Shown one piece after another: positions 29,225-47,486 of a stretch of DNA of 64,000 nt. The notes beneath the pieces were generated by a model, which was not told where the DNA came from, ran no database searches, and worked only from the letters and a program-made list of their open reading frames with translations. The stretch is taken from assembly GCA_033977485.1 (NCBI GenBank), contig CM066994.1, positions 8,744,001 through 8,808,000 of the forward strand, written 5' to 3'. A program made the translations under genes and the position numbers. Within the stretch, counting starts at the first letter, position 1, and the number at the start of each line of letters is the position of its first letter. The DNA comes from Hydrangea macrophylla. Its lineage: Eukaryota > Streptophyta > Magnoliopsida > Cornales > Hydrangeaceae.

Positions 29225-29660
29225 TGGGTGGCTTCAAGGTGCTCTCTGATTTCTTCATGTCAACACTTATCAAGGTGCTCTCTGATTTCTTCATCTGTCT
29301 TCCCGACGTACTTCTTCAACACTTCGGGCTTCAAGAATGACACAAGCGTCCCCCTCACTCTTTTGTGATCTTCACCAATCAACTCAGATATGTCTCTCTC
29401 CCAGTATCCTCCTCACCGCTGTTGGTCGCTGATTGGAAAGAATGTTCCCATCGCACGTGTATATGAACTTGTTGGCTGCCTGTCCCTGGAGAAAAACTGT
29501 TGGGGTCCCAAAGAGGCTGAGTTTCGTTATGGGACCATAATTTCGTATTCTTTCTTGTAGCAAATCTTCAACCTTGTCGGCTCGTATGGCTCGCAAAAGG
29601 CTGAGGCTGTGGCCTAGTATTGGTATACCCAGAGAACCAGGTGGGACTCTTTTTGAAGAC
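29225..29660 (-). pseudogene. cytochrome P450 (CYP85 clan, CYP716/CYP728-like), body fragment
   Basis: On the minus strand, directly next to the Tat element, this continues a P450 N-terminal region: the proline-rich hinge VPPGSLGIPILGHSL, then a DLLQERIRNYGPITKLSLFG segment and GQAANKFIYTCDGNILSNQ, typical of CYP716/CYP728-type enzymes, which oxidise triterpenoids or related lipids at the ER. The frame breaks at ERHI (stop at 29384-29386); the following frame carries the expected EDHKRVRGTLVSFLKPEVLK. A 36-bp segment (GAAGAAATCAGAGAGCACCT core) is then tandemly duplicated with a stop between copies. The I-helix, ExxR and heme-Cys regions are absent. The first 26-27 residues are at 49029-49107, beyond the retrotransposon. 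Confidence 0.85.
29656..29660. other. target site duplication, left copy (AAGAC)
   Basis: AAGAC before the left LTR matches AAGAC at 49029-49033 after the right LTR: a 5-bp duplication as expected for Ty3/gypsy integrase. Confidence 0.95.
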
Positions 29661-31202
29661 TGTGTGAGGTTCTTTTGTGATGTATGTGAAAGATACAGAG
29701 AGATATAACACGCAAGCCTGGATTAGTACACGTGGAACAAATATGTGAGATATAAGCAAGAGTGTATAAAATATAATAATAATGGCAATAGGGATAATAG
29801 GATTCGGAGAGACTTCGGGTCCGGATGAGAACCGAAGTAGTCCCAAGTGAGAGAGAGAGAAAGCAGTGTGTATCCCGAGGCGATGGGTAGGTATTGGAGT
29901 GTTCGGAGTGGAACGAAGGACGAGTTGAGACGACGGGTGCAATAGGGCTAAAAGGGGGGTTTGGTGATATGAATGGTGCTATGAGGCGAAGGATAGAATG
30001 AGACGAAGGTACTGGTGGGGGCGAAAGGTCAAAGTGGGCTGGAGACTACGGGAATGTTTTGGCAATGGCTGGGAGTAAGAATGACTGCTAATCCTTTGCT
30101 CTAGTACCGGATTAGATCAAGTTGGGTTGTTGGGTGTAGTAAATGAGGGTGCTTATTTATAGTTGAAGCCGGTGGTGTATTTGCAAATCTTTGACATGAT
30201 AGAGCAAGGCCGAGTTGGCATCCTCTTACTGGGTTGTTTTGCTTAAGGTAGGTGAGTGGCTTAAATGCTGCTGTTTAGGGTGGTTGAGGGCATTAAATGG
30301 GATGTAGACGGAGCATGTACCGAGCTGGTGGAGACAAAATGGGAGAGAAATGCTTGTCGTTTGGTTATGAACTAATATCATTGGTTGGTCAAGGGAGGAG
30401 GAGGTGCTACTGGTGCAGAGGTTTCAGCGAGTGGAGGTACCGAGGCTTTTGCTATTGGCTCCGAGAGGTTAAGCGAGGGCAAGTGTCGAGGCATGCAGAC
30501 GGCTTCAGCGAGGGAGGGAACCGAGGTGTTTTCTATTGGTGCAGCTGGTTAAGCAATTTTGACATGACTAAGCATAGGCGGTCAAAGGTTCCGACGAGAT
30601 TTGCAGTAATGAGCTTTGCTTATTGGCTGTGGGTGGATCGGGGTGAGGCACGTGTGAAAGTCACGTGTCTCTCTCTCTCTTTGGGCCCAACCCTAACCTT
30701 ACCCGTGGGGCGCAGGTTAGGGAGATGCCTTCGGTTCTAGCCACCTTACCATGAGTTTCCGAGATCCCAATAGACTTGCCCACCCTTAGGTACTGCTTCC
30801 AAACCAAGGGTAGGTGTCCGAGTGTAAGTGTGTGCATATTTGGAATGTTCTTCCTTTGTGGGCTGCTTTAGGCTTTCTGGAGAGTGAAGTTTCGGAGTGG
30901 AGTTGAAGTGGGCCACTTTACGCCTTTGGAGAATAAGGCTTTCGGAATGGAGTTGACCCTGGTGAAGGCTTTGGAGTAGGCTCATCCGGAATGGGCCCTC
31001 GGGGTGGGCTTTATTAAAGTGGGTCTTGGGGGAGCTTCGTAGTTACCTGCATTTGTAGTGTGTTTTGTGGGTGGGCCCGTTTGGAGTGGGCTAGCGGTTT
31101 TGGAGTCGTTACACGTAGAGTCTACAATAGTGATGTTGTTACACGTGGAGTCGTTGGTGATGTGTGTAGTCAAAGTATATGAGTTGTCGACTATTACCTA
31201 CA
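29661..31202 (-). repeat. 3' LTR, 1542 bp
   Basis: On the minus strand it starts TGTAGGTAATAG and ends CCTCACACA. A TATAAATA box lies at about 30154-30161. ORF-like stretches inside (for example 30297-30740) recur unchanged in the other LTR and are not genes. Confidence 0.97.
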
Positions 31203-31215
31203 TTAGCCCCCCTGT
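31203..31215 (-). other. polypurine tract
   Basis: The minus strand reads ACAGGGGGGCTAA immediately before the 3' LTR. It has the same G6 core as the tract at 10302. Confidence 0.85.
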
Positions 31216-32366
31216 CCGTATTCTAGGCGTGGAGCGGCTAGGATGCGGGCATAGTCCTTGCGTATCTTTCCCGGTTTATTTTGCTGGTAATGAATGGGCC
31301 TTCTAGCCTTTTGCGGGTCATGTTTTGTTGACAGTTGGATAGATGTCTCAACTTTGTGCAGGTAGTACTGTCCTTCTGGTGAGGTTTTTGATGTCGAATC
31401 TGGTTAATAGATTGGTCTGGTAAGTATTAGTGTTGCCTGCTGTGCATGTTCGTTGTGCAGTTTTGGGGTGGTAGCTATATAAAAGGGGAGGGTTGTGGAG
31501 ATTACATGCAACCAATCCTCAACGCAGACTTGCATTCTTGCTCCTTTATAGTGTAAGACATGAGTTCCTTGTCTGGATTATTACCATGTGAGGCAGGAGT
31601 GTTTTGGCGATGGTGCGGGGTCAAAATTTCTTGGGACCTCCGCTATGTATCAGACTTGTGCGTGGAGTGGCGTTACAAGTTTTGCATAATATATTTCTAG
31701 GGATCTTTTCTATCAGTGCAAAGATGGGGAGAGATCTTTTCTAGCAGTGCACATGCTTTATTAGGCGGTGCGTGTTCTATCTGGGTGCTATGTCGTCGTG
31801 GTGCTTGTGATGAGTAACTGCTGTTTAGATCTTTCTCCGTGTTTTGGGGTGAGGATCACGATATTTGGGGCGAGCTGGTGATAACTGATGTTTCTGCTCT
31901 ATTGCGCTGTGAGTTCTTCTTTCACGAAAGTACTGGGCTACTGTGGCCTGGTGTTTTTGTGCTTAGGAGATCCGGGCTGGATGCGAAATGGTTGTACAAG
32001 TTCTCCCTGAGATATCCTGATTTGAACAGTCATTGGCCCGTGACGTGGTGATCCAGGCTTTGTTCCTCATCCCGAATCTGATTCCAATAAATCATGTGTG
32101 TGTCCTTGTAATGTATGTATTGGGTCTGTAAGAGACACGCATGTTTATCGTTGTCATGTATTGGTGTATGTATTGGGTCTGTAATGTTTCATAATAAAAA
32201 TTGTATTTTGTGCTAGTCCTCTTGTACTTGTGATTGGTGATTTTGACTCTTTGCCTTATTCTCTGAAAAACTATTAGGAGTGGTAGTCGGAGTCTATATT
32301 CATGGAGTCCCTGTTGTGGTGTGATGGAGTGTGCCTCTCAGAGGGGTGGGAGAGGGGTATCCTATG
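31216..32366 (+). other. possible upstream unit of the antisense cassette; only small ORFs
   Basis: A TATA box CTATATAAAAGG at 31475-31486 (+) precedes an ATG at 31560 with a 46-codon frame. A second small frame, 31839-32051 (70 aa), follows. Both contain Trp/Tyr-rich WxYKF-like words but match nothing I know. AATAAA words at 32068 and 32191 could end a transcript. A fifth, short or decayed gene is possible. Confidence 0.35.
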
Positions 32367-32580
32367 GAGAGATGGAGATGGGGAGTGTGCCCCTTGTGGG
32401 GAGTGTGCCCCTTGGAGGAAAAAAAAGAGATGGAGATGGGGAGTGTGCCCCTTGTGGGGAGTGTGCCCCTTGGAGGAAAAATTTCCTATCTGGAGAGGGT
32501 ACTGTATCTGGGGAGGAGATGTTGGGGAATGTGCCCCTAGGATATTTGGAGAGGCGATGTTGGGGAGTGTGCCCCTGGGT
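32367..32580 (+). repeat. 58-bp minisatellite, about two clean units plus diverged copies
   Basis: Two nearly identical units starting GAGATGGAGATGGGGAGTGT, each holding two GGGGAGTGTGCCCCTT words, followed by looser copies of the GTGTGCCCCT word to 32580. Confidence 0.85.
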
Positions 32581-32650
32581 GAGGTGTGTCTTCCTGTACT
32601 TTGATTGACGTGTTTGTATGTATACGTGTACTCTGCATCCGTTCTAGTGG

Positions 32651-32663
32651 TCTATATATATAA
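32651..32663 (+). promoter_or_regulatory. TATA box of cassette gene A
   Basis: TCTATATATATAA, 42 bases before the ATG at 32705, is well placed for a plant core promoter with a short leader. Confidence 0.6.
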
Positions 32664-32704
32664 GTGTAGTAACCCCTTTATGATCCTTTGTAGCGGATAT
32701 ACAT

Positions 32705-33361
32705 ATGGCTGACTCCACTTCGTCCCATGTTGTAAGAGGACGTCGTCCTCTTCCCGACTTATTTGGTAATTCAGAAGATGGTTGGAGGGGTGTCAAGGTG
32801 CATCACTGGTATGCTGAGTGTTTAGAGCGTGTTTATAATCATAGGCCTGATACTTTTGTTGATTTTGCTGATCGCGCTCCGGAGCAGCAATCTACCCTGC
32901 TGAATCATTTGGGGTATGTTTTGGATTACCTGTCCATGGTTACTTTGTCCACTAGTGATGAAGATGTGTATTGTGTTTGTTTCCCAAGAGTTCACATCAT
33001 GATGGAAGCTGAGCTGCCAGTACAATGGTTGCTTCATCATTTGGAAGACATGCAGCAAAAATATTTTGTTTTTAAGATTGTGCTTCATAGGAAGAGTCTC
33101 GCTGTTCGTCGCAAGGAGATTTTGCGGGAGATGGAGAAATGTAAGGATGCTCTGTCGTGGCTGGGAAGACTTTTGAGGCCAGATAGTAACCAAATAGCTC
33201 TTTTTGAGGGTCATGAGAAAGACCTGATGGGGTTGGAGAGTGAGCTGGCGGTGATTCAACGAGAACTTGCGGAGGTTGTTGCCAAAGAGCTTCCTCTTCG
33301 TCCGTTTGTAAACGAGAACGGCCTTCATGAAGATTACGAGCTGGACACCGGGCTCTTTTGA
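32705..33361 (+). CDS. cassette gene A: helical protein of unknown function, 218 aa
   Basis: Not recognised as a named family. Predicted soluble and mostly helical, with no signal peptide or membrane segment. It shares with genes B and C the N-terminal pattern LP-[DE]-x-F, then DGWRG (residues 25-29), then VY-x(3)-P-[DEQ]-TF (43-51), and a later V-x-WL-x(2)-HLE-x-M (about 106-116), followed by a coiled coil. It ends in YELDTGLF, nearly the same as gene B. The motif order resembles the helical C-terminal region of plant MATH/RTM3-like and PEARLI-4-like proteins (my inference, to be tested by profile search). It is transcribed opposite to gag-pol, has its own TATA box, and lies nearest the 3' LTR. 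Confidence 0.7.
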   Translation: MADSTSSHVVRGRRPLPDLFGNSEDGWRGVKVHHWYAECLERVYNHRPDTFVDFADRAPEQQSTLLNHLGYVLDYLSMVTLSTSDEDVYCVCFPRVHIMMEAELPVQWLLHHLEDMQQKYFVFKIVLHRKSLAVRRKEILREMEKCKDALSWLGRLLRPDSNQIALFEGHEKDLMGLESELAVIQRELAEVVAKELPLRPFVNENGLHEDYELDTGLF

Positions 33362-33537
33362 TCGGAGTCTCCAACGCTGTCCCCCTTGATAAATGTAAAC
33401 ATATATAGAATATATTTTTGTTTGTTTGCATAGTGGGTAGCAGATCCTGTGTGGTGTAGTATCCTGTATTTTGTCGCCATGTGGTTAATGTGATATGGCA
33501 CGTGTTGCGTTTTGTCTTGATGTTCCTTTATTGTCTG

Positions 33538-33549
33538 TCTATATATTGT
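33538..33549 (+). promoter_or_regulatory. TATA-like motif of cassette gene B
   Basis: TCTATATATTGT about 90 bases before the ATG at 33640. A TTTCATTGCAG at 33606-33616 could also be a splice acceptor in the leader. Confidence 0.45.
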
Positions 33550-33639
33550 GGGTTTGGGTGCATCTTGAGTTCCTCATATGTATTGCCTTTGTGTGCTTGA
33601 TTTTGTTTCATTGCAGTGTGGTTGGTTTTGTTTGTGGAG

Positions 33640-34329
33640 ATGTCTGGTGTTGGGTCTTCCGGAGGTTCTTCGTGGGGTTTGCCACTGCCAGAGTCATTTG
33701 GAGTCGTGGAGGATGGCTGGAGAGGTGTGAGGATAGATCAGAAGTTTTTTGATAATCTAGAGCTAGTTTACCAACGATATCCTGAAACTTTTGTTCGTTT
33801 TGGACGAATTGGTGCTAGATCTCAATCCGATTTACTAAAACGTCTTTGTCGGATTTTGCGCCGGCTGCGGAAGACGACGCTAGAGGAGGCTGATAATGAT
33901 TTCTTTGCTAGCTTGCTAGAACAGGTGCGAAATCTGGTACAAGATAGACTGTCGGTCCACTGGTTGCATTCCCATGTAGAGGAGATGGAGCGTAGGTATG
34001 GCCTTTTTGAGCCAATGTTGGAGCGGCGTGCTGCTTTTAATACTTATCTGGAGTTGGAGAATTCTGTGACCGAGTGTGCACGAACTATGGGGCGTTACGA
34101 GAGTATAGTGTGCGGTGGCAAGCGGGTTGGCTCCCTAGATCCGAACACGGTGGAGTTTATTGAAATGTATGAAGCTGAGCATCGGCGTTTTCTGGAGCTG
34201 AAACGGGAATATGCAGATGGTAATGTTCGTTTTGAAGCTGCTAGAGCTGAAGTGTCTGCTGTTGAGCAGCAAATTCGCGAACTGGGCTTGCATATTAATT
34301 ACAAGTTGGATACCGGCTTGTTTGGCTAG
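33640..34329 (+). CDS. cassette gene B: paralogue of genes A and C, 229 aa
   Basis: I chose the ATG at 33640 because it gives MSGVGSSGG, aligning with the starts of A and C; the frame is open slightly further upstream. DGWRG is at residues 25-29 and YPETF at 47-51, exactly as in gene A. The later LSVHWLHSHVEEMERRYGLF aligns with LPVQWLLHHLEDMQQKYFVF of gene A. A long coiled coil follows (about 150-215), and the C-terminus NYKLDTGLFG matches A. Similarity between A and B is spread over the whole length, pointing to tandem duplication inside the element. Function unknown. Confidence 0.7.
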   Translation: MSGVGSSGGSSWGLPLPESFGVVEDGWRGVRIDQKFFDNLELVYQRYPETFVRFGRIGARSQSDLLKRLCRILRRLRKTTLEEADNDFFASLLEQVRNLVQDRLSVHWLHSHVEEMERRYGLFEPMLERRAAFNTYLELENSVTECARTMGRYESIVCGGKRVGSLDPNTVEFIEMYEAEHRRFLELKREYADGNVRFEAARAEVSAVEQQIRELGLHINYKLDTGLFG

Positions 34330-35151
34330 CCAGATCTTTAGTTGTATTTGAAGGCATGGAGTATATGTTTTTATTTTGTGTTACTGATATTAGGTGAAAT
34401 GTATGTATATTTTTATTTTGCCCCGAGCAGTGGCGGTTTTGTCCATTGTTGGTATCTTAATGAATGTAATGGAGTTGAGGTTTGCAAATTTTTTTTTTTA
34501 AGATCTGCTTATCTCGGGCACCTTTAGTAGTGTTGAAATTAAAAAAAAAAATTTTAAGAATGAGGGTATTGTACGAAGGATAATAACTAGAGGATATGGA
34601 CCGTGTAGAGGATCAGAGCGTATTTTTGATTCTTTCATAGAGAAATCTGGCAAAGATTTTAATTGTACTGGCGATGTGAGTGAGGGGACTAGTGATCAGG
34701 AGCTAGTAATTTAAATAGGGACAATGGCCGGATAGCATGTGTGTTTTAAGTGGGAGCTCCTCTTGGTTTTTTTTTTATATCTAAAGTTAGTTTATAGGGT
34801 GTAAAGGAAGAAGAAGAAAAGAAGAAGAGAAAAGCAGAGGAAGAGAGAAGAGGTATAGACATTTAGGCAAGCTTGGAGTGGAGACACCATTGGTGGTTTC
34901 TCAAGGTATGGATTTCTCTTTGCCTCTTACTTCCCTCTATATGAGGATGTGGGTATATATGTGTATGTAAGGATGTAGTTGTGATTGGGTTAAGGGGTTT
35001 GTATGTATAAGGAGATGGGTCCATGGGGGTAGTGGTGAAATCGGGTGGTGATCCGGTTTGTGGTGGTGGTGTGGCGAGGTGGGGGGGGGGGGGGGGGTTT
35101 TCGGGTGGGCGTGGGGGTTGGGGAGCCGAAGGCAGAGGGAGGGGCCGATGC

Positions 35152-35190
<39 letters not shown>

Positions 35191-36471
35191 GTGGTGAGTT
35201 CCGAACGGTGGGGGGGGGGTTTTTCGATGGTGTGTTTCGGAGAAGGGGTCCGAGAGGGGGAGAGGGCTCCGAGTGGTAGGGGACCGAGGCCCTTCTGGTT
35301 TTTATTTATTTATTTTTTTTTTGGGTTGATTTCGAATGAGGGAGTTCCGGAGGTGGTGTTTCCGATGGGGGAGGGTTTCGGAAGTTGGTTCCGAAGGTCC
35401 GGACAGTTCGGGGATGAGGGTGGTTTCGGGAGTTGGGCAGGTTTGGCGGTGCGGGTTCCGAGTGGGCCGAAGGATGAATGGTCGGGGGTTTTTGGTGTTC
35501 CGGAAGTGGGGGTCCGAAGGGGCCGAATGGGTGTGGGGTTTCCGGGGGATTCCGAGAGTGTACGGATCCGATGGCCCCTTTGTTTTTTTTTTTTTTTGAA
35601 GTTTCGAAAGGGGGCGGGGATTTCCGAATAGGTTGGGGTGTTTCCGAGGGTGGGGGGAGAATTCCGAGTGACGGGGTGGTGGTTCCGAGGGTGGGGGGAG
35701 GTTTCCGAGGGTGGGGGGAGGATTCCGAGTGACGGGGTGGTGGTTCCGAGGGCGAGAGAGAGAAACGGTGGTGGGAAAGACCGAAGCCCCTTTCGGGTTT
35801 TTTTTTTAAGTGTTGAGTTCCGAATGGTGGGGGGCTCCGTCGGTGCGTTTCGGAAAAGGGGTCGGAAGGTGAGGTTTCGGAAAAGCGGTTACCGAGTGTC
35901 GGGGTGGTGGTACCGGGGGTGGGGGGCGGTTACCGAGTGTCGGGGTGGTGGTACCGAGGGTGGGTTCCAAATGGTGGGTTCCGGAAATGGGGAGTGTTCC
36001 GGATGGGGTGAGTTCCGAATGGTGGGTGCTGGGTGAATGTTCCGATAGATGGGGGATTTGTCGGATGAGGTGGGTTCCGAATGTTTGTTAGGAAGGGGGA
36101 GATCCGGGGGCTTTCGGGTTTTCTCCCTCTTTTTTTAGTTCTGGGGTGGTTGTTCCGTCGGTGGGGGAGGGGTGGGTTCGGGGGTGGGTCCGAAGGCTTT
36201 GGTGGGTTTTTTTTTTTTTTTTTTTGATTTGCGAGCGAGTAGCGAGGTTCCGAATGTGGTGTGTTCGAGTCGCCCTTGCTGTTTGATAATGAATAATAAC
36301 GGCGTTTAATACAAATAGAGAGATTGGTGTTGGAGGGGACTAACCTTGTCGTTGTTGTCTTTTGATTTTTAACAGCATAGTTTTATTGCCATTGGTTGCA
36401 AAGCTCTGTGATTCTTATCAAGATGTATTGTTTTGCAGCATTCTGCTATTCGGTGCTGATCTTTTGTCGGG
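34330..36471 (+). other. 5' region of the PMD gene: probable leader exon and long G-rich intron
   Basis: A purine-rich stretch at 34800-34860 leads to TTCTCAAG/GTATGG near 34906, a fair splice donor. TTGTTTTGCAG at 36429-36439 is a fair acceptor 33 bases before the ATG at 36472. This suggests a non-coding leader exon and a first intron of about 1.5 kb holding the G-rich block. ORFs of up to 202 codons inside it are by-products of base composition. Confidence 0.4.
35015..36240 (+). repeat. G-rich, T-tract-rich low-complexity block with tandem words
   Basis: Extreme strand bias: the plus strand has G runs up to about 18 (35081-35098) and T tracts of about 15-30, with almost no C runs. Repeated words such as TTCCGAGGGTGGGGGGAG and TTCCGAGTGACGGGGTGGTG recur between about 35640 and 35960. 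Many G3+ runs lie close enough for G-quadruplexes on the plus strand. Confidence 0.85.
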
Positions 36472-39400
36472 ATGGTGCAAGAGCTTGGTCACGGGGCGGG
36501 TGATCAACCACTTCTAGGTATTCCGGAGAGATTTTGGCAGCGTGCCCCGTATATATTTACAAATGATAACTTCTGGCAGCCGATTGTTGAAAGTGTAAAC
36601 GGAGGTGGCACATGTTCGGAGGCGGATAGTGCGGCGAGGTTTGATTTGCCGCCTGCTCATGCTATTATCCGATTGGGTGTGGAGAGGGTTGAATATCCTC
36701 ATGCTGTATTAAAGTTTGTAGCTGCTTCGGGAGTTGCTCAGTGTGAAGCGTGGAATGAATGGACGGAGTACATATTGGCAAACTTTGAGGCTGTCCTGAA
36801 GGAGGCGCGGATTTATGACTCTATTAGTTTATTCAGAGATATGAGGTGCTCTTTAGAGGAGAGAGACATATTGACTTTGATTTCCCGCTGGTGCTCAGTC
36901 ACGCATACTTTTGTTGCTGCATGGGGTGAGTTTACCCCCACTTTGGAGGATGTCTCGTCTCTATTTTTATTGAATATTGGTGGTGGTTTGGATTTTGGCT
37001 CCTATCAGCTTTCGGTGGAGGATATGGTGGTAGTTGAGGCGTTAGAAGCCGGTACCTTAGCCTGTCAGTTTACTTCGCATTTTCTGAATGATGGTAAGGA
37101 GAGGCCCAGGGGTCCTATTCCGAACGGAGATAAGGCCGATTATCGTGCGTTTCTTCGGTATTTCTGGGAAGATCGACAACCAGGTGCGAAGCGACGACAT
37201 CGGAAGAGTTTTACTGGGAAGGGGAAGGATTATAGTCTTGCTGCTTATCTTGTGTGTTGGCTCTCAAGATACATATTTGGAGGTGCCCCAGAAGACGGGC
37301 CTTGCTCACATTTATTCGGATTGGCCTCTATTTTATCACGCGGGCAGGCTCTCCCATTGGCGCAAATGTTCTTGGGATCGTTATATTTACGGTTGGATAT
37401 GGTGGCCCAGGACATGCGACGTTCGGTGGGGCGGTATGACATTGCTACGCATGTTTCATATTTATTCTTACAGTTGTTTTTGTTTGAGAGATGGCGCGGC
37501 TATGCGGGGCCTGGTTCGACGAGGGTGGCATCTAGATTTTGGGGACAACGGTGGGGGTCTGACGTACGACCTGAGTTTCCTCTCGCTCGGGTTATTGATG
37601 ATGAATCAGCGTTTATATTCCGTCCGTACGTGGAGATTGCTAGTATGACGCAGCTACCTTTGTTCCGTAGGCTTCCGGCTCGGAGTGTGGTGAGGAGTAC
37701 TTTGGGTGGCGAGGCGGAGGATGTGGTAGCGGCCGTTCATGCTGTTACGCGTATGTATTTGCCTGGGTTCACGGAGCGTGGAGCTCGTGAGATGATATAT
37801 CGCCCAGATAGGGTATGTAGGCAGTTCGGCCTTAATCAAGGAGCCGTGGTTCTAGACTCGCCGTGCCCACTTGTCGGTTTGCGTGACTGCTATGAGGGGC
37901 GTAGTAGCATGGGTCCGGATACAGTGTTATTGGTTGGGCCGGAGATTTCTGGTTGTTGTGTAGGCGACTATGCTCTCTTTTGGCGACATGCTCAGGCGAG
38001 GTTTTACGCATATTGTGATGACGCTCCTATGCCGGTGTCGGTGCCGCGGATAAAAAATGCAGACCCCACGCTACGAGCAATAAGTAAGAAGGACGGTGCC
38101 ACTCGCACTCATGATGCTGCCCGGTGGGGTAAGTCCAGATTTTTTGACCGACTACAGAGGAGTGTTGTATTGGTCGATGGTGATGGTTGGGATAGTAGTT
38201 TCTTGTTAATTGAGTTTGATACCTCCGAGGATAGTCCCATGCGGAGAAAGAAACATGTGAGTCCCTCTTATAAATTTGATTTGATCACACATCTATTTTA
38301 TTTATTAATATTCGATTTAAAGGACTTTGTTGGTTAAAATTTTGTCTTTCTGTTTGTGCAGGTGTTGCAGCATGCGGTAAATAAAAGAAAAAGGAGAAGT
38401 GAGAGCAGAAGGGGCCAAGCAATCATTATAGATACCGAGGACCCCGAGGACACCGATGACGCGGGATTATCAATTCCTTCGGATGACATCCAGGACATTC
38501 CTTTTTTTGATACTGGTGTGGAGGATGCATTGTTGATGGATGCGGGTGTAGCTCCGGCTTTTCGGCCCATGGAGGAGGTGTTTATGTGCGATGATGTTGG
38601 AGGTGGGGCAATCGACGAATCGCCGGGAGATCAAGAATGTGAAACTGCTATAGGGGATGGGCGGCGAGAACGACTGGAGAGGGTGGATAGTGATTCCTCT
38701 GGTGAGGTCGTGGAGCGTATGCAGTTACCGATGGTAGACGCTTCGGTTTTGACGTCTGTGGCCGCCGGTGTTTTTGGTTCTGGCCGCCCTTTGAGTGGTG
38801 TCAGCCGTCCTTGTCCCGTTGGGACCGGGTTTTCACTTTCGGACTCCGGCTTCCGGAGATTTGCGGGCTCCGCTTCTTCGGATAATACTGGCTTTGGGGC
38901 TACTACTGGTGACGGTGAGGCAATTGTGTCTCTCGGTGTTTTTCAATCCGGGCTTGGCACTACTTTGGGGTTACGGTCGCATGAGTTTGATAGGCGGACG
39001 TTGAGTTCCGATGGTGTCCACTCTCCGCCGTGTGGTAGGACTACTGATTCGGCTTCCGAGACGGTTACAGTTGGCGTTAGCTCTTCTGTGTTAGCTCCTG
39101 AGTCGTTTCCTGTTGTGGCTTCTATACCTCATGCAAGCTCTGCTGAAGGCGGGTTACCCATTCCGAGTTTGGCCAGTATTTTGGGGAAAATTCCTGGTGA
39201 CGTTCCTTTCCCGGCTCTTGCTACTGCCACTGAGGAAGTCGTGTTGGGGATGATATATCGTCGGTATCCGCAGACCTTTTCTCCTTCGGTCATGAGGGTT
39301 GCTGCTGGTTTAAGGTCTTTTTTCTTGAGCACACTTGCATCTATGGTTTGGAGTTTATTTGCCACTAATGTGGCGGATTTGAGTGGAAGCCTTCTAAATA

Positions 39401-39765
39401 ATATGGCGAGTGAGCTTGCATCTTTTAGGGAGGTTATGGGCTCGGATGTGTGTTGGTTGGAGGCGCGTTTGGCCCTAGTTAGGGTAGCTACTGGGTTGAG
39501 GTGTGCGGATGACGAGATGGCGAGCGTGAGTACTAGGATGGTGGAGATTGAGCGGGAAAGGGCCGACTTGGAACGTCGGTTGGTGGCATTGAAGGAGGAG
39601 GAGGCGATTCTTGGGGGTCGTGAGAGGGCGGTTATTAAGGTACGTGAGTTTTTGAGTACCTTGGGGACTTTTGACGCGAGTGCCCTCCGGATGCCTGCAG
39701 ATAGTCTCGGCATTGGCGATTTGTTTTCTTCCGCAGATATGGATATTCTTGGTACTTTCCGATAG
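36472..39765 (+). CDS. antisense PMD gene of the Tat element, two exons, about 1062 aa, intact
   Basis: Exon 1 is 36472-38256 (595 codons), exon 2 38362-39765 (467 codons plus stop), and the intron 38257-38361 (105 bp, GTGAGT ... TTTGTGCAG) is phase 0. Residues about 60-450 form a plant mobile domain: WNEWTEYILANFEAVLKEAR then IYDSI, LISRWCSVTHTFVAAWGEFT, and TLEDVSSLF. The middle is acidic and Ser/Gly-rich, with a KRKRR basic patch just after the splice. The last about 200 residues hold VVLGMIYRRYPQTFSPS and VCWLEARLALVR, aligning with the helical domain of genes A-C, then a coiled coil (ERERADLERRL). Cellular PMD proteins (MAIN, MAIL1) act with PP7-like phosphatase in silencing. Here it is a passenger gene opposite to pol; an anti-silencing role is only an inference. 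Confidence 0.85.
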
Positions 39766-40221
39766 GTGTTTCTTTTGTCCAAGTAAAGATATGTGCTACG
39801 TTGTCTATTATTATTATTATTTTTTTTTTTAATCATGGCGGGTATGTCCATTGTAATATATATATATCCCCCTCTTTTGTTTAGCTTATAAAAAGAAAAA
39901 TGTTATGTTTAATGCATGTTGTCTTCCTTATGCAATATATGTGATATGTGTGTATCGTTGGAGACAGGGGGAGAAGTTGGGTGAGATAAGTTGTGAAAAA
40001 ATGTAGTAAGGATAGTTGTTGCGAAAGAGAATAGAAAAGTTAAAATTGATTTTGTTTTTTTTTTTTTTTTAAATATATTAAGATTTAAAAAATAAATAAA
40101 TAAATAAAAAGTGTTTATATGTCCACACGTGGCACATACAGAGATAAGGGGGTGGGGTTAGATTTTGCTGGAAGGTTTGTGTGGCTACAACGTGCTAGTG
40201 TACGGTTTGCTTTTAAGTAGT
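39766..40221 (+). other. AT-rich spacer between the PMD gene and gene C
   Basis: Contains T tracts and a TATATATATA run near 39860. It should hold the PMD terminator and the gene C promoter. No ORF. Confidence 0.5.
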
Positions 40222-40231
40222 GTATATAAGA
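40222..40231 (+). promoter_or_regulatory. TATA box of cassette gene C
   Basis: GTATATAAGA, 52 bases before the ATG at 40284. Confidence 0.6.
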
Positions 40232-40283
40232 GGAGTATGTATAACATTCTTGTTGAGTATTTGAGTGTTAAGTGGGCTAAAGT

Positions 40284-40964
40284 ATGGCAGGCTCGTCATG
40301 GGCGTCAAATTCGGGGCCGGGCTTTTCACGGCTACCGGAGACGTTTGGGGATACGCAAGATGGCTGGCGAGGTATTCCCGTATGGGAAATACTTGTGCCT
40401 TTTTTGGAGAGGGTGTATGTACACCATCCACAAACTTTCATCGGCTTAACATATATGAATCAACAAGAAAGATTATTAGCTTGTAAGATGTTGGGCAATG
40501 TACTTTTAGAGATGTCTAGGACTAACCTGGGGGATGCCACTTACGATTATATGCAGCGAGTAAGAGGTGATATACATGATATAAGCACACAAGGGCTGCG
40601 TCTGTTGTGGCTGACGGAGCATCTGGACATGGTGGTTTTACTGCGACAATTTGTGGAGGCTAGACGGCGAAGGCATTTTGATGAGCGGCAATTTGTTGCT
40701 GTCAGCGAGAATTTCCGGAGAGCTCGAGTGGAATTGGTAACTAATGCTGGTCAGTGGAGGAGGTCGGGAGTGCCTCGCTCGTCGCAGCAGGAGGCTCAAG
40801 CATTGCGGCTTCAGGCGGCCGTGGATCGTGGTGAGGAGGAGTACAAGCTGTTTGAGGAGAGACTGGCGAGGTCGAAAATAGTGGAGCAACGTTCGCGGAC
40901 AGGGATTTCTACGGACGAAGTTACGAATGAAACATTGGTGATTGTAGGGTTGTTTGCGGAGTAA
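40284..40964 (+). CDS. cassette gene C: paralogue of genes A and B, 226 aa
   Basis: Starts MAGSSWASNSG, then LPETF, DGWRG (residues 26-30) and LERVYVHHPQTF (41-52), in the same positions as in A and B. LRLLWLTEHLDMVV is the third shared block, followed by an Arg/Glu-rich coiled coil. The C-terminus (VGLFAE) has diverged from the LDTGLF end of A and B. It converges on pol, with 253 bp and a long T tract between the stops. Function unknown. The conserved positions across three members argue that they have been kept as proteins. Confidence 0.7.
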   Translation: MAGSSWASNSGPGFSRLPETFGDTQDGWRGIPVWEILVPFLERVYVHHPQTFIGLTYMNQQERLLACKMLGNVLLEMSRTNLGDATYDYMQRVRGDIHDISTQGLRLLWLTEHLDMVVLLRQFVEARRRRHFDERQFVAVSENFRRARVELVTNAGQWRRSGVPRSSQQEAQALRLQAAVDRGEEEYKLFEERLARSKIVEQRSRTGISTDEVTNETLVIVGLFAE

Positions 40965-41018
40965 ACAACTACTCTTGAGTTTAATGGATATCGAGTGACC
41001 TTCGTAATCTAGGGGAGT

Positions 41019-41021
<3 letters not shown>

Positions 41022-41063
<42 letters not shown>
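41022..41063 (+). repeat. T42 homopolymer between gene C and pol
   Basis: An uninterrupted T run between the convergent 3' ends; on the gag-pol strand it is an A run just downstream of the pol stop. Confidence 0.95.
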
Positions 41064-41066
<3 letters not shown>

Positions 41067-41217
41067 GCTTGGTGCTTTGTTTAGTAATGTGGGGAGAGTA
41101 ACTTCGAAAATATTAAGTTGTTCATGAATGTTGTGGTACATATCTTCTTTCGACTAACAACTTTCTCTAGTGCAAACCAAAACAGTAGAACAAAAAGATG
41201 ATAAACAAAAGTGCTGG

Positions 41218-44200
41218 CTAGGCATGATATAGCTTTAACCATTGGGTGTTGATTGGTCCAGATATGGATTTTTCACCAACCTTCTGGATCCTATAATACC
41301 CGCTGGGGTTTGCTTCTTTAACTTCATAAGGTCCTTCCCACTGCGGCGTGAATTTGGGCGCCGAAATACCACGCATGATGTGCTTGGCTGCCTTCAAAAT
41401 TAAGTCTCCTTCCTTAAAAGCTCTGGGTCGGACCATAGCATCGTAAGCCCGTGCGATTTGCTTTTGGTACTTTTGGAGGTTTGATTGCGCCTTGTCCCTA
41501 TGCTCATCCAGTTGCTTGAGCATAGCCGGGCGAGGGTCGTGTAGAACCTCGCTTTTCATGGCAATTCGGGCAGAGGCTACCACCAATTCTGTGGGTAGAA
41601 CTGATTCGGCTCCATAGACCAAAGAGAAGGGAGTCGCCTGAGTTGGTCGTCTCTTGGAAGTTCTGTAGGCCCAAAGGGCCAGAGGGAGTTGGTCGGCCCA
41701 AATCTTGGGACAGTCCTTCATTGTCCTGCTTAAGATCTTCAGTAGTGTTTTATTTGTTGCCTCGGCCTGACCATTGCCTTTTGGATAATAAGGAGTGGAC
41801 TTGTGGTGGGTGATGTCATAACTTAGGAGGAGCTGTCCCACATGCTTGTTAATGAATGGTGTTCCATTATCGGATAGGACTACTTTGGGGATTCCGAAAC
41901 GGCACACAATGTGCTCTCGGATGAAGGCCGCTACTGCCGGCCCGACTGCTTTCCGCATTGGTATGGCTTCCACCCATTTGGTATAGAGTTCTGTGGCCGC
42001 GAGGATCCAAATATTGCCTTTTGATGCCGGAGAAATTGGCCCTATGAGATCGAGAGCCCAAGTGTGGAATGGCCATGGTGTCGACAGTGCTCGCAAGTCA
42101 ACGGCAGGTGCATGGATTCGATTTCCGTGGATTTGGCAAGGGTGACATCTTTTGACATGATTTTTTGAGTCTTCTTCCATCGTTGGCCAGTAGTATCCTA
42201 GGTCCAGGAGGTGGCGGTATAATTTTGTTCCCCCTTGGTGCTCGAACCCATGTGCTTCGCTCAGAACTTGGTGAATTTCTCCCCCAGCAAGACATCGCAG
42301 CGGCTCCCCATTGAAGCCGTGACGAAACAGCTGATTCTCGTGGACAAAGAATTTCAAGGCCCGTTTCTTTACTATGGCCGCGTCGCCTCTATCAAGGGGG
42401 AGAGAGTTCTCGTTCAGATAATCCATATATGGATGGCGCCAATCTGCTATCTGAGCCGTGAAATTGCAATCTTCCTTGCTCGGATCTTTCGGACATTTCG
42501 AGCAAGTCCGTTGGAACATGGAAGCCTCTTTAGACATTTCGGGCCAGTAGTACCCCTTTCTCTGTATCATCCGATAAAGACTGATATCCTTGTCTCCGCA
42601 CGCATTTTGGTGAATCTGGTGGAGTCGAAGTTTTGCCTCTTCTTCCCCCACGCATCGCGCCAAGACGCCCGTAGGAGCACGAAAATAAAGATTGCGTCCA
42701 AGGAGGGTGAAGTTTTTTAGTTCTGACACTGTCATTTTTCCTTCACGACTTAATAATTGGGTGATGATGGGTGCTCTCCAGTCGTTGATTTCCTCAGGGG
42801 GGAGTAGCTCCAAAATGGTACATGGGAGAGTTCTTTTGACGATCTCGATTCGGGTGGAGCCTTCGGGTATGTCGACTTTTGACGCAAGAGTTGCCAAAGC
42901 GTCTGGAAAGCGATTGTCCGATCTTGGCGCATGCTCCATCCGAATGGCCTCGAATTTGTCCAATAGCCTTAGGACTATGGTTCTGTATTCTGCCAAAGCT
43001 GGCTCCCTGATCGCGAATTCTCCTGAGGTTTGTTTGACAACAAGATTGGAGTCGCCCTTGATGCACAGGCGGGTGACTCCCATATTAGCGGCCGCCAGGA
43101 GTCCTAATATTAGCGCTTCGTACTCCGACTCGTTATTTGAGCATTTGAAGTCAAGCTTATAGGACAAATGGAGCTTGGAGCCGTCTGAGTGAGATATCAA
43201 GTTGATTCCTGCTCCTCCTCCCAGTGACGTAGAGGACCCGTCGAAGCTGAGAGCCCATTCCCCGAGGTCTTTGGTTGCCATTACACAGTTAAGTTCTTCT
43301 CCCGGAAGTGTTTCCCAAGGCGGTTCAAATTCTCCACTGGGGAACTGGGCTAGTAGATCTGCCAAAGCCTGACTTTTGATTGCTTTTGGTGTCACGCAAG
43401 TGATATCAAATTCGGCCAGGAGAAGGAGCCACCTCGCCATTCGTCCTGAGAGAGCAGGCTTAGATAGGAGATATCGCAATGGGTCACACCTCGTAACCAA
43501 GTGTACGATATGACTGAGAAAGTAGTGCCTGAATTTTTGGGCTGCGAATGTGAGTGCGAGACAATGCCGCTCGATGGGCGTGTATCTTACCTCAGCATCA
43601 CGGACCACCCGACTAATGTAGTATACCGGTTTTTCTTTTCCGTCAATCTCCTGGGCAAGGAGTGCCCCGATAGATTTGTGCGTGGATGTGAGATAGAGGA
43701 GCAGCGGTTTTTCCTGTGTTGGAGCCACCATGGTGGTGGGAGCTGACAAAGCTCTCTTGACAGCTTCGAAAGATTGCCGGTGGACTTCTTCCCATCTGAA
43801 TTTGGCTTTCCCTTTCAGCAGATCTCCCAGGGGGTGAGATATCTCTGACAACGCTGGAATGAATCTACGGAGATAGGACACCCTTCCCATGAACTGCTTT
43901 AGTTGCTTCTGAGTACTTGGCGGTGGCATGTCCATGATTGATTTGGCCTTTGTCGGGTCTAGGTCGATGCCATGGCGATGGACTATGAACCCGAGGAATT
44001 TTCCCGCCGTAACCCCGAAGGCGCACTTGAGTGGATTCATCCGGAGCTTGAATTTTCTGCAACGTTCAAAAACGGCACGGAGATCGTTTTCATGGCCTTT
44101 CCCTTGTCTGGATTTCACTACGATATCGTCCACGTAATCCTCCAAATTATGGTGGAGCATATCATGGAAGATGGTCGTCATTGCCCTTTGGTAAGTGGCG

Positions 44201-44937
44201 CCTGCGTTCTTCAGTCCAAAGGGCATGACGGTGTAATAAAAATTGCCAAAGGGGGTACGAAAGGCTGTCTTTTCTGCGTCTCCTGGATCCATTTTGATCT
44301 GATTGTAGCCGCTGAATCCATCCATGAAGGAGAACTCTTGATGTCCGGAGGTGGCGTCGATTAGAGTATCGACATTTGGCAGAGGGAATTCATCTTTCGG
44401 GCATGCTTTGTTTAGGTCCCTGAAGTCGACACAAATTCTGATCTGTCCATTCTTCTTTTTCACCGGTACCACATTTGCCAACCAAGTAGGGTGCTTGATG
44501 GGCTTAATGAACCCTGCATGAAGGAGTTTCTCCACCTCGGTTTTAATTTGGAGTTCTAGTTCATGCCGAAACACTCGAGGTGCTTGCTTCACCGGCCGGT
44601 GGTTTGGATCGACGTTGAGCTTGTGTGTTACCAAGGACGTATCCAGTCCCGGCATCTGTTCGTATGTCCAGGCGAATACGTCGATGTATTCCTTGAGAAG
44701 GGAAATCAACGTGGCTCGTTCCTCCGAAGTTGCTGCTTTGGAGACAAAGGTGATACGAGGGGTTCTCCCTTCTGGTGCGAGATTAATTTCCTCTATTTCT
44801 GGTCCTGCAGTGCGTGGTCCATCCTGGAACGTCTCCGGGGCTACCCCGGGCTCGGTAGCTTCAGGTATCCCTATGGTATTGCATTCTGGGGCTTTAGGGC
44901 CGTGCGGTGTAGCTTCTGGGCCCGGCCCCGCGCACCG
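41218..44937 (-). CDS. pol: reverse transcriptase, RNase H, archaeal-type RNase H, integrase
   Basis: It follows gag-pro in the same frame after one UGA; no ATG is needed if readthrough occurs. Counting from 44709: RT (about 30-290) with FMDGFSGYNQ and the catalytic YVDD; a first, retroviral-type RNase H (about 330-440); a second RNase H with FDGSS, NNESEYEAL, GDSNLVV and a final FPDAL, the Tat hallmark, carrying the acidic residues; then integrase. Integrase has its zinc-binding region twice (HQIHQNACG ... CSKC and HGFEHQGG ... CHPCQIHG), then DLIGP, SDNGTPF and NGQAEATNK as the DDE core. About 1240 residues including the part before 44709. No frameshift seen. Confidence 0.93.
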   Translation of the reverse strand, partial: RCAGPGPEATPHGPKAPECNTIGIPEATEPGVAPETFQDGPRTAGPEIEEINLAPEGRTPRITFVSKAATSEERATLISLLKEYIDVFAWTYEQMPGLDTSLVTHKLNVDPNHRPVKQAPRVFRHELELQIKTEVEKLLHAGFIKPIKHPTWLANVVPVKKKNGQIRICVDFRDLNKACPKDEFPLPNVDTLIDATSGHQEFSFMDGFSGYNQIKMDPGDAEKTAFRTPFGNFYYTVMPFGLKNAGATYQRAMTTIFHDMLHHNLEDYVDDIVVKSRQGKGHENDLRAVFERCRKFKLRMNPLKCAFGVTAGKFLGFIVHRHGIDLDPTKAKSIMDMPPPSTQKQLKQFMGRVSYLRRFIPALSEISHPLGDLLKGKAKFRWEEVHRQSFEAVKRALSAPTTMVAPTQEKPLLLYLTSTHKSIGALLAQEIDGKEKPVYYISRVVRDAEVRYTPIERHCLALTFAAQKFRHYFLSHIVHLVTRCDPLRYLLSKPALSGRMARWLLLLAEFDITCVTPKAIKSQALADLLAQFPSGEFEPPWETLPGEELNCVMATKDLGEWALSFDGSSTSLGGGAGINLISHSDGSKLHLSYKLDFKCSNNESEYEALILGLLAAANMGVTRLCIKGDSNLVVKQTSGEFAIREPALAEYRTIVLRLLDKFEAIRMEHAPRSDNRFPDALATLASKVDIPEGSTRIEIVKRTLPCTILELLPPEEINDWRAPIITQLLSREGKMTVSELKNFTLLGRNLYFRAPTGVLARCVGEEEAKLRLHQIHQNACGDKDISLYRMIQRKGYYWPEMSKEASMFQRTCSKCPKDPSKEDCNFTAQIADWRHPYMDYLNENSLPLDRGDAAIVKKRALKFFVHENQLFRHGFNGEPLRCLAGGEIHQVLSEAHGFEHQGGTKLYRHLLDLGYYWPTMEEDSKNHVKRCHPCQIHGNRIHAPAVDLRALSTPWPFHTWALDLIGPISPASKGNIWILAATELYTKWVEAIPMRKAVGPAVAAFIREHIVCRFGIPKVVLSDNGTPFINKHVGQLLLSYDITHHKSTPYYPKGNGQAEATNKTLLKILSRTMKDCPKIWADQLPLALWAYRTSKRRPTQATPFSLVYGAESVLPTELVVASARIAMKSEVLHDPRPAMLKQLDEHRDKAQSNLQKYQKQIARAYDAMVRPRAFKEGDLILKAAKHIMRGISAPKFTPQWEGPYEVKEANPSGYYRIQKVGEKSISGPINTQWLKLYHA

Positions 44938-44945
44938 TCATAGGC
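44900..44945 (-). promoter_or_regulatory. candidate stop-codon readthrough signal between gag-pro and pol
   Basis: The minus strand reads CTA TGA CGG at the end of gag-pro (TGA at 44940-44938), and pol continues in the same frame. UGA followed by CGG is the type II readthrough context known from plant RNA viruses. The next bases are very GC-rich and can pair (GGGCC with GGCCC, GTGCG with CGCAC), as a stimulatory stem-loop would. Confidence 0.55.
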
Positions 44946-47451
44946 AGCGGTATACAAAGCGTCCGTCAGGGAGCTTGACTCGAATGCATTCCGGGGAAAC
45001 GCTACGGCGACGTTTCTGTTTCTCCTTCGAGGAGAAATCTTCTTTCCGGGCGTCCTCCCACTTTGGGATGGTGAGGCCGCGCGGTGAGACTGGCGGTGTG
45101 GTCTCTTCTTCGGAACAAGCATTATCGAATAGTTCCGCTTCCGCCATATGAGCCTCATGATTTCCAAACGGTTTTAGGGTCCCGGCCACAGTGAACACTT
45201 TCCTTCCCTCGCTAGTATTCACTTTTCCCTTCATGCATTGATGGTAGGTGGATGGTACGATGCCGAACGTGTGCATCCACTTGCGACCTATTAGGAGATG
45301 ATAAGAGGTATCCGCATCGATCACATGAAATCGGGCCGGTGCTTGGAACTTTCCAAGGCGAAGTGACGTGGTGACAAACCCAATTGTTCGACGTGTGTCA
45401 TTGCCGAACCCCGCGATGTCTGTGGCCTGTGGAATCAGTTTCTCAAGGGAGATACCAGTTTCCTTGAATGTGGTTAACGACATGATGTTGAGGGAGGCTC
45501 CTCCGTCTAGCAATGCTCTTTTGAACTCTCTTTCGTGGACCGTGGCTGACACATACAACGGGCGATTGTGTGGGTGTGGGACCTGTATGTCCGCATCCGT
45601 GAAGGTGATCGCTGACTCAGCTTCTAAAGCAGCGCGACGGACGGAACCCCCGGTGGCTACGCATGCTTGCTGGTAGGTTTCTGCCACTTGTAGGATAGCT
45701 TTGGTGGCTTCAAGGCGTGCTTCCTCACAGAATCCAACCTGATCAAAGAAGTATCTGAATTTGGTGAGATTTTTGACTTTTGACGCCGTGAATTCCATGG
45801 TGCTCCAAGAAGGGTTTGTCATGATCATACTGGTGGAGGGATTCCTAGCGATTGGTGATGTTTCTTCTTCTTCTTCTATGAGTTCGATGAGAGGAGCCGT
45901 CATTTCCACAGGTGACAACCCACTGGGGTGATCGATGGTAGGAGACGCAATTTTTCGCAAGTGGTGAGAAGCCATGTGGAGGGAGACCATATTAACAGCT
46001 CCTTCGTTGTGTCCCCGAAGTTGGCGAGGTATTTCCTCAGCAGCATCTGGCTGAGTAGTGGTTACCAACTCTCCGTTGGCTATTTTCCTATGGAAGATGC
46101 CGCGAAGGGCCCAGCAGTCCTTGGTTGCGTGCTTTACCATCTGGTGATAAGCACAGTAATTATACCTGGCCTTGTCACCTTCTGTCGGAGGTCTTGTGGG
46201 CGGGCGAAGGGTGATTACCTCATCTCTTATCCATTTCTTGAGTACGGCATGTACCTCCTTCATGCTGCAAGGGAATGGAGCCGGTGCGTCAGTTTCGTCC
46301 CTTCTGCGCTTGTTATCATTGTATTCTCGGTCTCGTCCACTTCTTCTTTCTTCGGTTACAGCAGCGGTTGGATAACGACGGGGTGCCGAAGGGCGGGTAT
46401 CTCGGTGTATCCTTGATGGTATTCTCACATCCTTTGCTAAGTTTCGTGCAGCAACCATGAGATCCGAGAATGCCGGGAACGAATGATTGATGAGATGAAT
46501 CCTGTAGTCGCGGAGCATTCCATGTACACAGAGCTGGACGAGACCTTCTTCAGTGGTGTTGTCGTGGCATTCCATGGCGAGATCGCGAAACCTGTCCACA
46601 TACTTAACCAAATGCTCATTTTCACCTTGGACTTCTCGGGAGAGGGAGATGGTGGTAACTTTTTCCGTTACGCTGAAGAATTTCGCGTGGAACATTGAGG
46701 CCAGTTGAGCCCAGGAATTGACGGAACCAGGCTCTAGGTTGGCATACCAAGTGTATGCCCGGTCGGTCAAAGATTTAGAAAATTCTCGAAGACGCAAGTT
46801 TTCGTCTTCTCGGTAGGTACCGAGACCGTCGAGAAATCTGGCCATATGTTCTTTGGAGTTTCCCCGCCTGCCGTCGTATCTTGCAAAGTGTGCGTTACTG
46901 TATCCCTCTGGATAAGGGAGGCTGGCCAATCTCAGTGGATAAGGAGGTCGGGTGTCTAGTGCCGGAATATGCGGGATTGATAGAGCTTTTTCTTTCAATA
47001 ATGATTCCACCTCAGCCAAGGTGACAAATCCGGTGGGGATTTGTTTCTCCGTCCCGGAGACGACACCGGTGGGTGTTGATTCTTTTTGTGCATTCTGCTG
47101 ATTGTTAACATCGGAAATGTTAAACGAGGTTCTGACCACGTCTTCCAGCCCAGAGGCGCCGTTTGGCGCCGATGGGGGAGTCACCTTCTGAGCCATGGCG
47201 GTCAGGGTTTCGATGATGAGGTGGTTCTGCTCTTCCAATCTCTGGAAGTGCTTCTGCTGTCCTTCTATTTGTTCTAACCGTTTTAAGATGTCGAGCTCGA
47301 CGTCAGCTGCGATGGATTCCCGAGAATCCTGAGTTTGTGAGTGGGTTGGATTGAGGCTTATTTGGTTGATGTTTGACCCGGTAGGTTGGGCCTTGGACTT
47401 TCTGGGGCGCCCAGACTTTTTGGGAGGCGGTTGTTCTCGTTCGCTAACCAT
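44938..47451 (-). CDS. gag-protease polyprotein of the Tat element, 837 aa
   Basis: Start chosen at the ATG at 47451 (MVSEREQPPPKKSGRPRKSK), the first one inside the element; the frame is open back into the LTR. The N-terminus is basic, then a coiled coil with LEQIEGQQKHFQRLEEQ (about 60-90). The retrotransposon gag domain follows (RFLDGLGTYRE ... YTWYANLEPGSVNSWAQL). A nucleic-acid-binding motif, CAYHQMVKHATKDCWALR, replaces the usual CCHC knuckle. The aspartic protease is near the C-terminal third (ALLDGGASLNIM). It ends PDGRFVYRCL then TGA. The products would form the cytoplasmic particle and mature it. Confidence 0.92.
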   Translation of the reverse strand: MVSEREQPPPKKSGRPRKSKAQPTGSNINQISLNPTHSQTQDSRESIAADVELDILKRLEQIEGQQKHFQRLEEQNHLIIETLTAMAQKVTPPSAPNGASGLEDVVRTSFNISDVNNQQNAQKESTPTGVVSGTEKQIPTGFVTLAEVESLLKEKALSIPHIPALDTRPPYPLRLASLPYPEGYSNAHFARYDGRRGNSKEHMARFLDGLGTYREDENLRLREFSKSLTDRAYTWYANLEPGSVNSWAQLASMFHAKFFSVTEKVTTISLSREVQGENEHLVKYVDRFRDLAMECHDNTTEEGLVQLCVHGMLRDYRIHLINHSFPAFSDLMVAARNLAKDVRIPSRIHRDTRPSAPRRYPTAAVTEERRSGRDREYNDNKRRRDETDAPAPFPCSMKEVHAVLKKWIRDEVITLRPPTRPPTEGDKARYNYCAYHQMVKHATKDCWALRGIFHRKIANGELVTTTQPDAAEEIPRQLRGHNEGAVNMVSLHMASHHLRKIASPTIDHPSGLSPVEMTAPLIELIEEEEETSPIARNPSTSMIMTNPSWSTMEFTASKVKNLTKFRYFFDQVGFCEEARLEATKAILQVAETYQQACVATGGSVRRAALEAESAITFTDADIQVPHPHNRPLYVSATVHEREFKRALLDGGASLNIMSLTTFKETGISLEKLIPQATDIAGFGNDTRRTIGFVTTSLRLGKFQAPARFHVIDADTSYHLLIGRKWMHTFGIVPSTYHQCMKGKVNTSEGRKVFTVAGTLKPFGNHEAHMAEAELFDNACSEEETTPPVSPRGLTIPKWEDARKEDFSSKEKQKRRRSVSPECIRVKLPDGRFVYRCL

Positions 47452-47465
47452 ACTTGCGAGTATAT

Positions 47466-47483: not shown

Positions 47484-47486
47484 AAA

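Follow-up and report, generated by a model that had tools for sequence, protein, structure and literature searches.

A Ty3/gypsy retrotransposon of the Tat lineage occupies positions 29661–49028 (19,368 bp) of a 64,000-bp stretch of the 2.22-Gb genome of Hydrangea macrophylla (C13:8744001–8808000), which is referred to here as the window. The element is oriented along the minus strand. A region of 10,015 bp, which separates pol from the 3′ long terminal repeat (LTR), holds four genes on the plus strand, namely ORF1 (32705–33361), ORF2 (33640–34329), a spliced gene for a plant mobile domain (PMD) protein (36472–39765) and ORF3 (40284–40964). The opposite orientation of these four genes relative to gag-pol had been proposed in a first-pass annotation made from the DNA letters and is borne out, with the open reading frames (ORFs) at these positions and the PMD gene splicing in frame. 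An ATG-initiated ORF of 218 amino acids arose in 1 of 300 dinucleotide-preserving shuffles of the region (31203–41217). Its real plus strand carries five ORFs of at least this length, the two PMD exons and ORF1–3, and its minus strand one, a 240-residue frame antisense to PMD exon 2.

The PMD gene is composed of two exons (36472–38256 and 38362–39765), separated by a GT..AG intron of 105 bp (38257–38361) that contains the stop ending the exon-1 frame. Splicing restores the frame and yields a product of 1,062 amino acids that terminates at 39765. Exon 1 matches the PMD profile (PF10536, E 4.5e-23) with 82.4 bits against a cut-off of 34.9, which places the protein in this family. In the protein collection 21 PMD proteins were matched, 19 of them named from plants, with an uncharacterised Cornus florida protein as the best match (35% identity); among PDB sequences, exon 1 had no match at E ≤ 1. 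The exon junction is flanked by the basic stretches RRKKH and KRKRR, which are kept in all three fetched copies (the second as KRKRR or KRKRK) and whose pattern, taken by itself, is suggestive of nuclear localisation signals. Following the basic stretch, exon 2 encodes a variable linker and a tail domain (39202–39762), which is related to ORF2 and ORF3. The intron is only 72–87% identical between copies and contains insertions and deletions, yet GT and AG are retained in all three. Such retention of the splice sites around a changing intron implies a spliced plus-strand PMD mRNA. Moreover, because the gene is antisense, its splice signals are reversed and unused in the minus-strand genomic RNA, so that an intron-bearing PMD gene could persist through retrotransposition.

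ORF1, ORF2 and ORF3 encode proteins of 218, 229 and 226 amino acids, which belong to one family of small domains. Their description as paralogues in the first-pass annotation is confirmed by BLASTP (1.5e-32, 8.5e-16 and 2.6e-15), and in their alignment 37 columns are invariant, among them those of a DGWRG motif near the N-terminus and of GLF near the C-terminus. No known family in Pfam or NCBIfam matches ORF1–3 above its curated cut-off. Likewise, ORF1 alone had no match among 194 candidates of the protein collection and ORF2 none in the plasmid collection. A profile built from the three sequences yielded a single match among 7,996 protein candidates scored, P0022. This protein of 246 amino acids, encoded by a contig of 1,112 bp from another source, is 62% identical to ORF2. 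The AlphaFold model of ORF2 (pLDDT 86.4, pTM 0.73, 4 sequences) predicts a head of helices that leads into a long antiparallel coiled-coil hairpin. In a fold search with this model, neither the PDB nor the viral libraries gave a match at E ≤ 0.001; the VIA-align rows shown are mostly confined to the coiled coil, and no structural relative stands out. PEARLI-4 (PF05278), which stays below its cut-off of 29.9 bits with both PMD exon 2 (17.4 bits) and ORF2 (11.5 bits), is a weak lead to a name for the small-domain fold.

The same domain appears to be fused to the PMD protein. Its last 187 residues align with ORF2 (z 7.2, none of 500 shuffles as good) and, in the same register, with ORF3 (z 5.1, 1 of 500 shuffles), while for ORF1 a relation to the tail is not detected directly in the shuffle test (z 2.4, 17 of 500 as good). 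The profile of ORF1–3 matches PMD exon 2 with a P of 0.0017, but with a probability of 15%. In a divergent subfamily of the element, ORF2 matches the PMD tail at 8.9e-6. In an unrooted tree of 24 proteins, some of them partial rows, the ORF1 proteins, the ORF2 proteins with P0022, the ORF3 proteins and the PMD tails are each set apart from the other rows by a single branch, supported at 97/99, 94/99, 100/98 and 100/99, respectively, from which it follows that the four groups split before the sampled element subfamilies. Taken together, the alignments make the C-terminal tail of PMD a fused domain that is remotely related to ORF2 and ORF3 and, by way of these two, to ORF1. The tail itself is poorly modelled (pLDDT 66.3), and since ORF1–3 and P0022 were part of the alignment used for modelling, the resemblance of its model to ORF2 is in part circular.

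Copies of the cassette genes are found throughout the genome, the match counts for ORF1, ORF3 and PMD being lower bounds. ORF1 has at least 150 scored matches, at least 99 of which span 214 or more of the 218 residues, 75 of these without a stop; ORF3 has at least 151; and PMD exon 1 has at least 74, of which 51 span 580 or more of the 594 residues, 31 of them stop-free (the figures of 99 and 75 and of 51 and 31 were counted by hand from the match tables). ORF2 adjoins ORF1 in 17 of 18 copies. The gene order was determined among the matches listed, which comprise 150 of the 151 ORF3 matches. Within this set, 71 of the 99 ORF1 copies have ORF3 on the same strand 5–15 kb downstream, 5 have it 15–60 kb downstream and 23 have none; no copy displays any other arrangement of the two genes within 15 kb. 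Viewed from PMD, ORF1 upstream and ORF3 downstream are both present within 20 kb of 47 of the 74 matches, at least one small gene is in the expected place in 69, and a small gene in a different order or on the other strand is seen in three.

The ratio of nonsynonymous to synonymous substitution (dN/dS) was calculated by the Nei-Gojobori method with the window copy as reference. For ORF1, 20 copies were taken from the 75 stop-free, near-full-length matches, a choice which biases the set towards intact copies and low dN/dS; one of them (L029) is identical and gives no ratio. The ratio ranges from 0.11 to 0.29 in 18 of the 19 informative comparisons and is 0.96 in the remaining one, which has 9 differences. 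The ORF2 and ORF3 copies were chosen by their position beside ORF1 copies and not by their own score. ORF2 gives 0.07–0.26 in 14 of 18 regions (L054 has no match; L062, L065 and L066 are gapped or partial), 6 of the 14 being stop-free in the aligned part. For ORF3, 8 of 15 search intervals were used, 6 of the 8 copies being stop-free; L077–L079 had no match, and L074, L076, L080 and L081 are shifted, duplicated or partial. A wider genome search placed ORF3 beyond the searched interval for the L077 and L079 copies. The ORF3 ratio is 0.06–0.16 in six diverged copies, whereas two nearly identical copies (3 and 7 differences) give 0.62 and 0.78. PMD was compared in 3 of its 74 matches, one with a stop in the tail, and gives 0.10–0.21 for exon 1, 0.17–0.23 for the tail and 0.39–0.73 for the linker between them. 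A 525-codon piece of pol yields 0.13 against one further copy.

The differences in ORF1, summed over the 20 comparisons, are distributed as 270, 225 and 547 over codon positions 1, 2 and 3, and in a neutral simulation a 218-codon frame with 60 substitutions stayed free of stops in 14% of cases. Judged by these substitution patterns, all four cassette genes are under purifying selection. The gene order common to dozens of copies, in combination with dN/dS of 0.06–0.29 between diverged copies, supports the earlier proposal that the cassette is an accessory module of the element. The first-pass annotation had named neutral decay across copies, with dN/dS near 1 and common stops, as the outcome that would speak against this proposal; a ratio near 1 is not found between diverged copies, whereas stops do occur in some of the copies. 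A nested gene or chance ORFs are ruled out by the gene order in dozens of copies and by dN/dS, and non-coding antisense RNA as the principal explanation by the codon-position pattern of ORF1.

Each of the three small genes is preceded by a TATA-like motif on the plus strand, as the first-pass annotation had described. The TATAWAW matches start 48–52 nt upstream of ORF1 (motif at 32653–32664), 100 nt upstream of ORF2 (33540–33546) and 61 nt upstream of ORF3 (40223–40231). Such a match is found 25–120 nt upstream of 454 of 4,093 non-coding anchor points in the region (11%), which corresponds to a chance of about 0.001 for all three ORFs. The box in front of ORF3 reads TATATAAG in 9 of 12 aligned upstream stretches, the window included, and in the divergent subfamily (L068) a TATAAAA box is similarly placed before ORF3, although the upstream DNA does not align. 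For PMD, no TATAWAW is present within 150 nt. A scan for bacterial-type promoters and terminators gave nothing above shuffles. From the TATA boxes, the retention of the one before ORF3 and the conserved plus-strand intron we infer that the plus strand is transcribed from promoters of the cassette itself. A further box, TATATAAAAGG, is situated on the plus strand at 31476–31486, some 275 bp inward of the 3′ LTR and 1.2 kb before ORF1, and may mark the start of a longer plus-strand transcript.

Upstream of PMD, a non-coding stretch (35199–36253) contains clustered TTCCGA hexamers on the plus strand, partly in tandem repeats of 20–21 bp and partly as single sites with other flanks. Within 35000–36270 the motif occurs 17 times on the plus and 4 times on the minus strand. 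In three other copies the counts are 21/0, 19/2 and 19/1, though the stretch aligns only in parts. Among the 48 hexamers present at least three times in each of the four copies, TTCCGA has the highest minimum enrichment (14.7-fold). Outside the element, the window holds 11 occurrences in 44.6 kb, distributed over both strands. Each LTR contains two plus-strand copies, and the only dense cluster within the element is the one upstream of PMD. All four copies of the element thus display a dense array of a short motif, set in one orientation within non-coding tandem repeats, the arrangement known from VANC-type systems.

The element that carries the cassette is young. Its 5′ LTR (47487–49028) and 3′ LTR (29661–31202), both on the minus strand and 1,542 bp long, differ at one base, and the target site duplication GTCTT is present at both ends (29656–29660 and 49029–49033). 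Assuming 4.7e-9 to 1.3e-8 substitutions per site and year, the insertion dates back roughly 25,000–70,000 years. The gag-protease ORF (44938–47451, minus strand; Retrotrans_gag 1.8e-13, Asp_protease weak) and pol (41218–44937, minus strand) are two ORFs when defined by start codon, yet they share one frame that is split by a single TGA (44938–44940, minus strand). This stop has CGG directly 3′ of it, a context that is leaky in plant viruses. Folding of the RNA 3′ of the gag stop is no better than that of shuffled sequences (z −0.8). In pol, the Pfam domains follow the order reverse transcriptase (RT), RT_RNaseH, RVT_3 (489–608) and integrase, RVT_3 being the additional RNase H that characterizes the Tat lineage. 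Its position between RNase H and integrase assigns the element to the Ogre/Retand branch of Tat, according to the definitions in PMC6317226. An extra ORF for PMD, an Ogre trait, is present, whereas the Retand trait, an antisense ORF with TRP28 (PF04195), is not among the Pfam matches of ORF1–3 and both PMD exons down to E 1.

Extra genes in related elements have been described. A PMD extra ORF occurs in 57% of Ogre elements (PMC6317226), and PMD was the most frequent atypical domain when plant LTR retrotransposons were surveyed later (PMC9289625). The recently active Retand families surveyed all carry antisense ORFs between pol and the 3′ LTR, with TRP28 in 97% of clusters (PMC11963269), and gene23 of the maize element Grande is transcribed from its own promoter (PMC11963269; PMC7264820). 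For sunflower Tekay elements, conserved frames termed aORFs have been reported, with a proposed role in modulating RNA silencing (PMC11728184). The view of the literature taken in the first-pass annotation was therefore close, with both PMD extra ORFs in Ogre (PMC6317226) and antisense ORFs in Retand (PMC11963269) in print. A PMD gene together with several small relatives of its own tail was not found in the literature searched, which included few subscription journals; the Steinbauerova 2011 survey may list such a set. Tat elements with PMD genes or with antisense ORFs are on record, and the four-gene module described here is a new variation on this theme.

In detail, the element shares with PMD-carrying Ogre and other Ty3/gypsy elements (Neumann 2019, PMC6317226; Ikeda 2017, PMC5418596) the PMD extra ORF, the Tat lineage and the additional RNase H between RNase H and integrase. 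It differs from Ogre, as far as described there, in the three genes of the helical family that flank PMD, the related domain fused to the PMD C-terminus, and the antisense orientation and selection of all four genes. With Retand, Grande and RIRE2 (Vicient 2025, PMC11963269; PMC7264820) it has in common that a long region, with antisense ORFs and tandem repeats, separates pol from the 3′ LTR. However, this region spans 10,015 bp here compared with the 2,933–6,566 bp reported for those elements, the domain they share, TRP28, is not found here by the Pfam scan to E 1, and PMD is not among the domains that the available text lists. Beyond retrotransposons, the cassette resembles the VANC system of VANDAL (MULE) transposons, which likewise combines an own protein with conserved and fast-changing parts and, beside its gene, an array of a short motif in one orientation within non-coding tandem repeats of fast turnover (PMC5735166, PMC10398659). 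VANDALs are, in contrast, DNA transposons, and the likeness to VANC noted here is one of layout. The PMD domain (PF10536) is also that of the host proteins MAIN and MAIL1, which, unlike the protein of the element, are host-encoded and serve to silence transposons. The host-like PMD genes compared are four from the neighbourhood of the window, with only 23–26% identity to the PMD of the element.

Against this background, the PMD protein may join with ORF1–3, the stand-alone relatives of its tail, in a nuclear complex that counteracts silencing. The predicted complex would enter the nucleus by means of the basic stretch spanning the PMD exon junction, assemble via the shared helical domain and act on the TTCCGA-rich DNA of the element itself, with TTCCGA as the candidate binding site, thereby lifting the silencing imposed by the host. 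We favour such an anti-silencing cassette tentatively, as a plausible reading that falls somewhat short of probable. It is preferred over other roles because of two analogies. MAIN and MAIL1 act in silencing, genes of the PMD-A clades occur in gypsy elements alone (PMC5418596), and a part of host PMD proteins in silencing is reported elsewhere as well (PMC7156037); VANC anti-silencing proteins bind a short motif that is arrayed in one orientation in non-coding tandem repeats (PMC5735166). Both the TTCCGA array and the fast-changing PMD linker are features resembling the VANC system. Weighing against this reading, one of 20 unrelated control loci is as dense in the motif, with 26 TTCCGA on one strand in 1,271 bp, in an AT-rich repeat of another kind. 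The more specific version, in which PMD and its tail relatives recognise TTCCGA as a self-contained VANC-like system and turn the PMD-based silencing of the host against itself, appears unlikely.

The selection acting on the cassette, about as strong as in the one comparison for pol, would also suit helper proteins for a step of replication, such as import of the cDNA into the nucleus, assembly of particles or targeting of integration, which might be packaged or be part of the pre-integration complex. The predicted ORF2 fold, a helical head with a long coiled-coil hairpin, has the shape of a scaffold, and nuclear-import or regulatory roles have been proposed for antisense aORFs (reviewed in PMC7264820). 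However, TATA boxes and an intron in a separate antisense unit point to expression independent of genomic RNA and gag-pol, and neither Pfam nor NCBIfam reveals a capsid, import or integration domain in the cassette; a helper function is possible but doubtful. Repression of transposons by host PMD proteins (PMC5418596, PMC7156037) could also be read as a hint that the cassette proteins control the expression of the element itself, for instance by repressing or timing sense transcription to limit damage to the host. The two plus-strand TTCCGA copies in each LTR would fit this idea, but two motifs per LTR are few and the motif is dense only upstream of PMD, which makes self-control improbable; the same holds for its particular form with TTCCGA as operator and the PMD protein as a repressor like host MAIN and MAIL1. 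Finally, antisense transcripts of retroelements can feed regulation by double-stranded RNA (PMC7264820), so that the antisense RNA rather than the proteins might matter, or the ORFs might be captured host genes that are merely carried along. With dN/dS far below 1 for all four genes in diverged copies and splice sites kept around a diverging intron, either case is very improbable.

A large survey raised the question whether the extra antisense ORFs of plant retrotransposons serve any function (PMC6317226, PMC7264820). The low dN/dS, the shared domain and the fixed order make this question testable with four defined proteins and one motif. If the cassette proteins do affect silencing, the element would be an LTR retrotransposon that has made a counter-silencing complex of its own out of a domain employed by its host for silencing. 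This would have implications for the question, raised in PMC5418596, whether gypsy elements gave rise to the host PMD genes or acquired theirs from the host.

One copy of the element, at C5:82.93 Mb (L031, L050, L068), is a mosaic. Its ORF1 DNA is 98.2% identical to that of the window and the DNA around ORF2 83%, while the ORF3 protein is 75% and the PMD tail 31% identical. These different degrees of divergence within one copy suggest exchange between subfamilies.

Further PMD sequences are found around the element and elsewhere in the genome. A fragment at 9400–9696 of the window (minus strand) is 30% identical to the PMD of the element, and in the surroundings of the window (C13:8.65–8.97 Mb) six PMD matches are listed, four of them without stops; it looks as if the element had landed in a cluster of host PMD genes, of which four were compared (see above). 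At 20 loci with weak PMD matches (L009–L028), tblastn with ORF1–3, PMD, gag and pol detected ORF1–3 and gag in none, and one piece of another gypsy pol (L024, 27–44% identical). A separate PMD group with open frames of 523 amino acids and near-equal scores occupies 13 listed places on many chromosomes and is perhaps a young element of another kind; beside three fetched copies of this group, no gag or pol like that of the present element was found. At one of the weakly matching loci (L026:2029–2572), an intact PMD gene of 826 amino acids is preceded, at a distance of about 2.5 kb, by an AT-rich repeat in which TTCGGAA is frequent on both strands.

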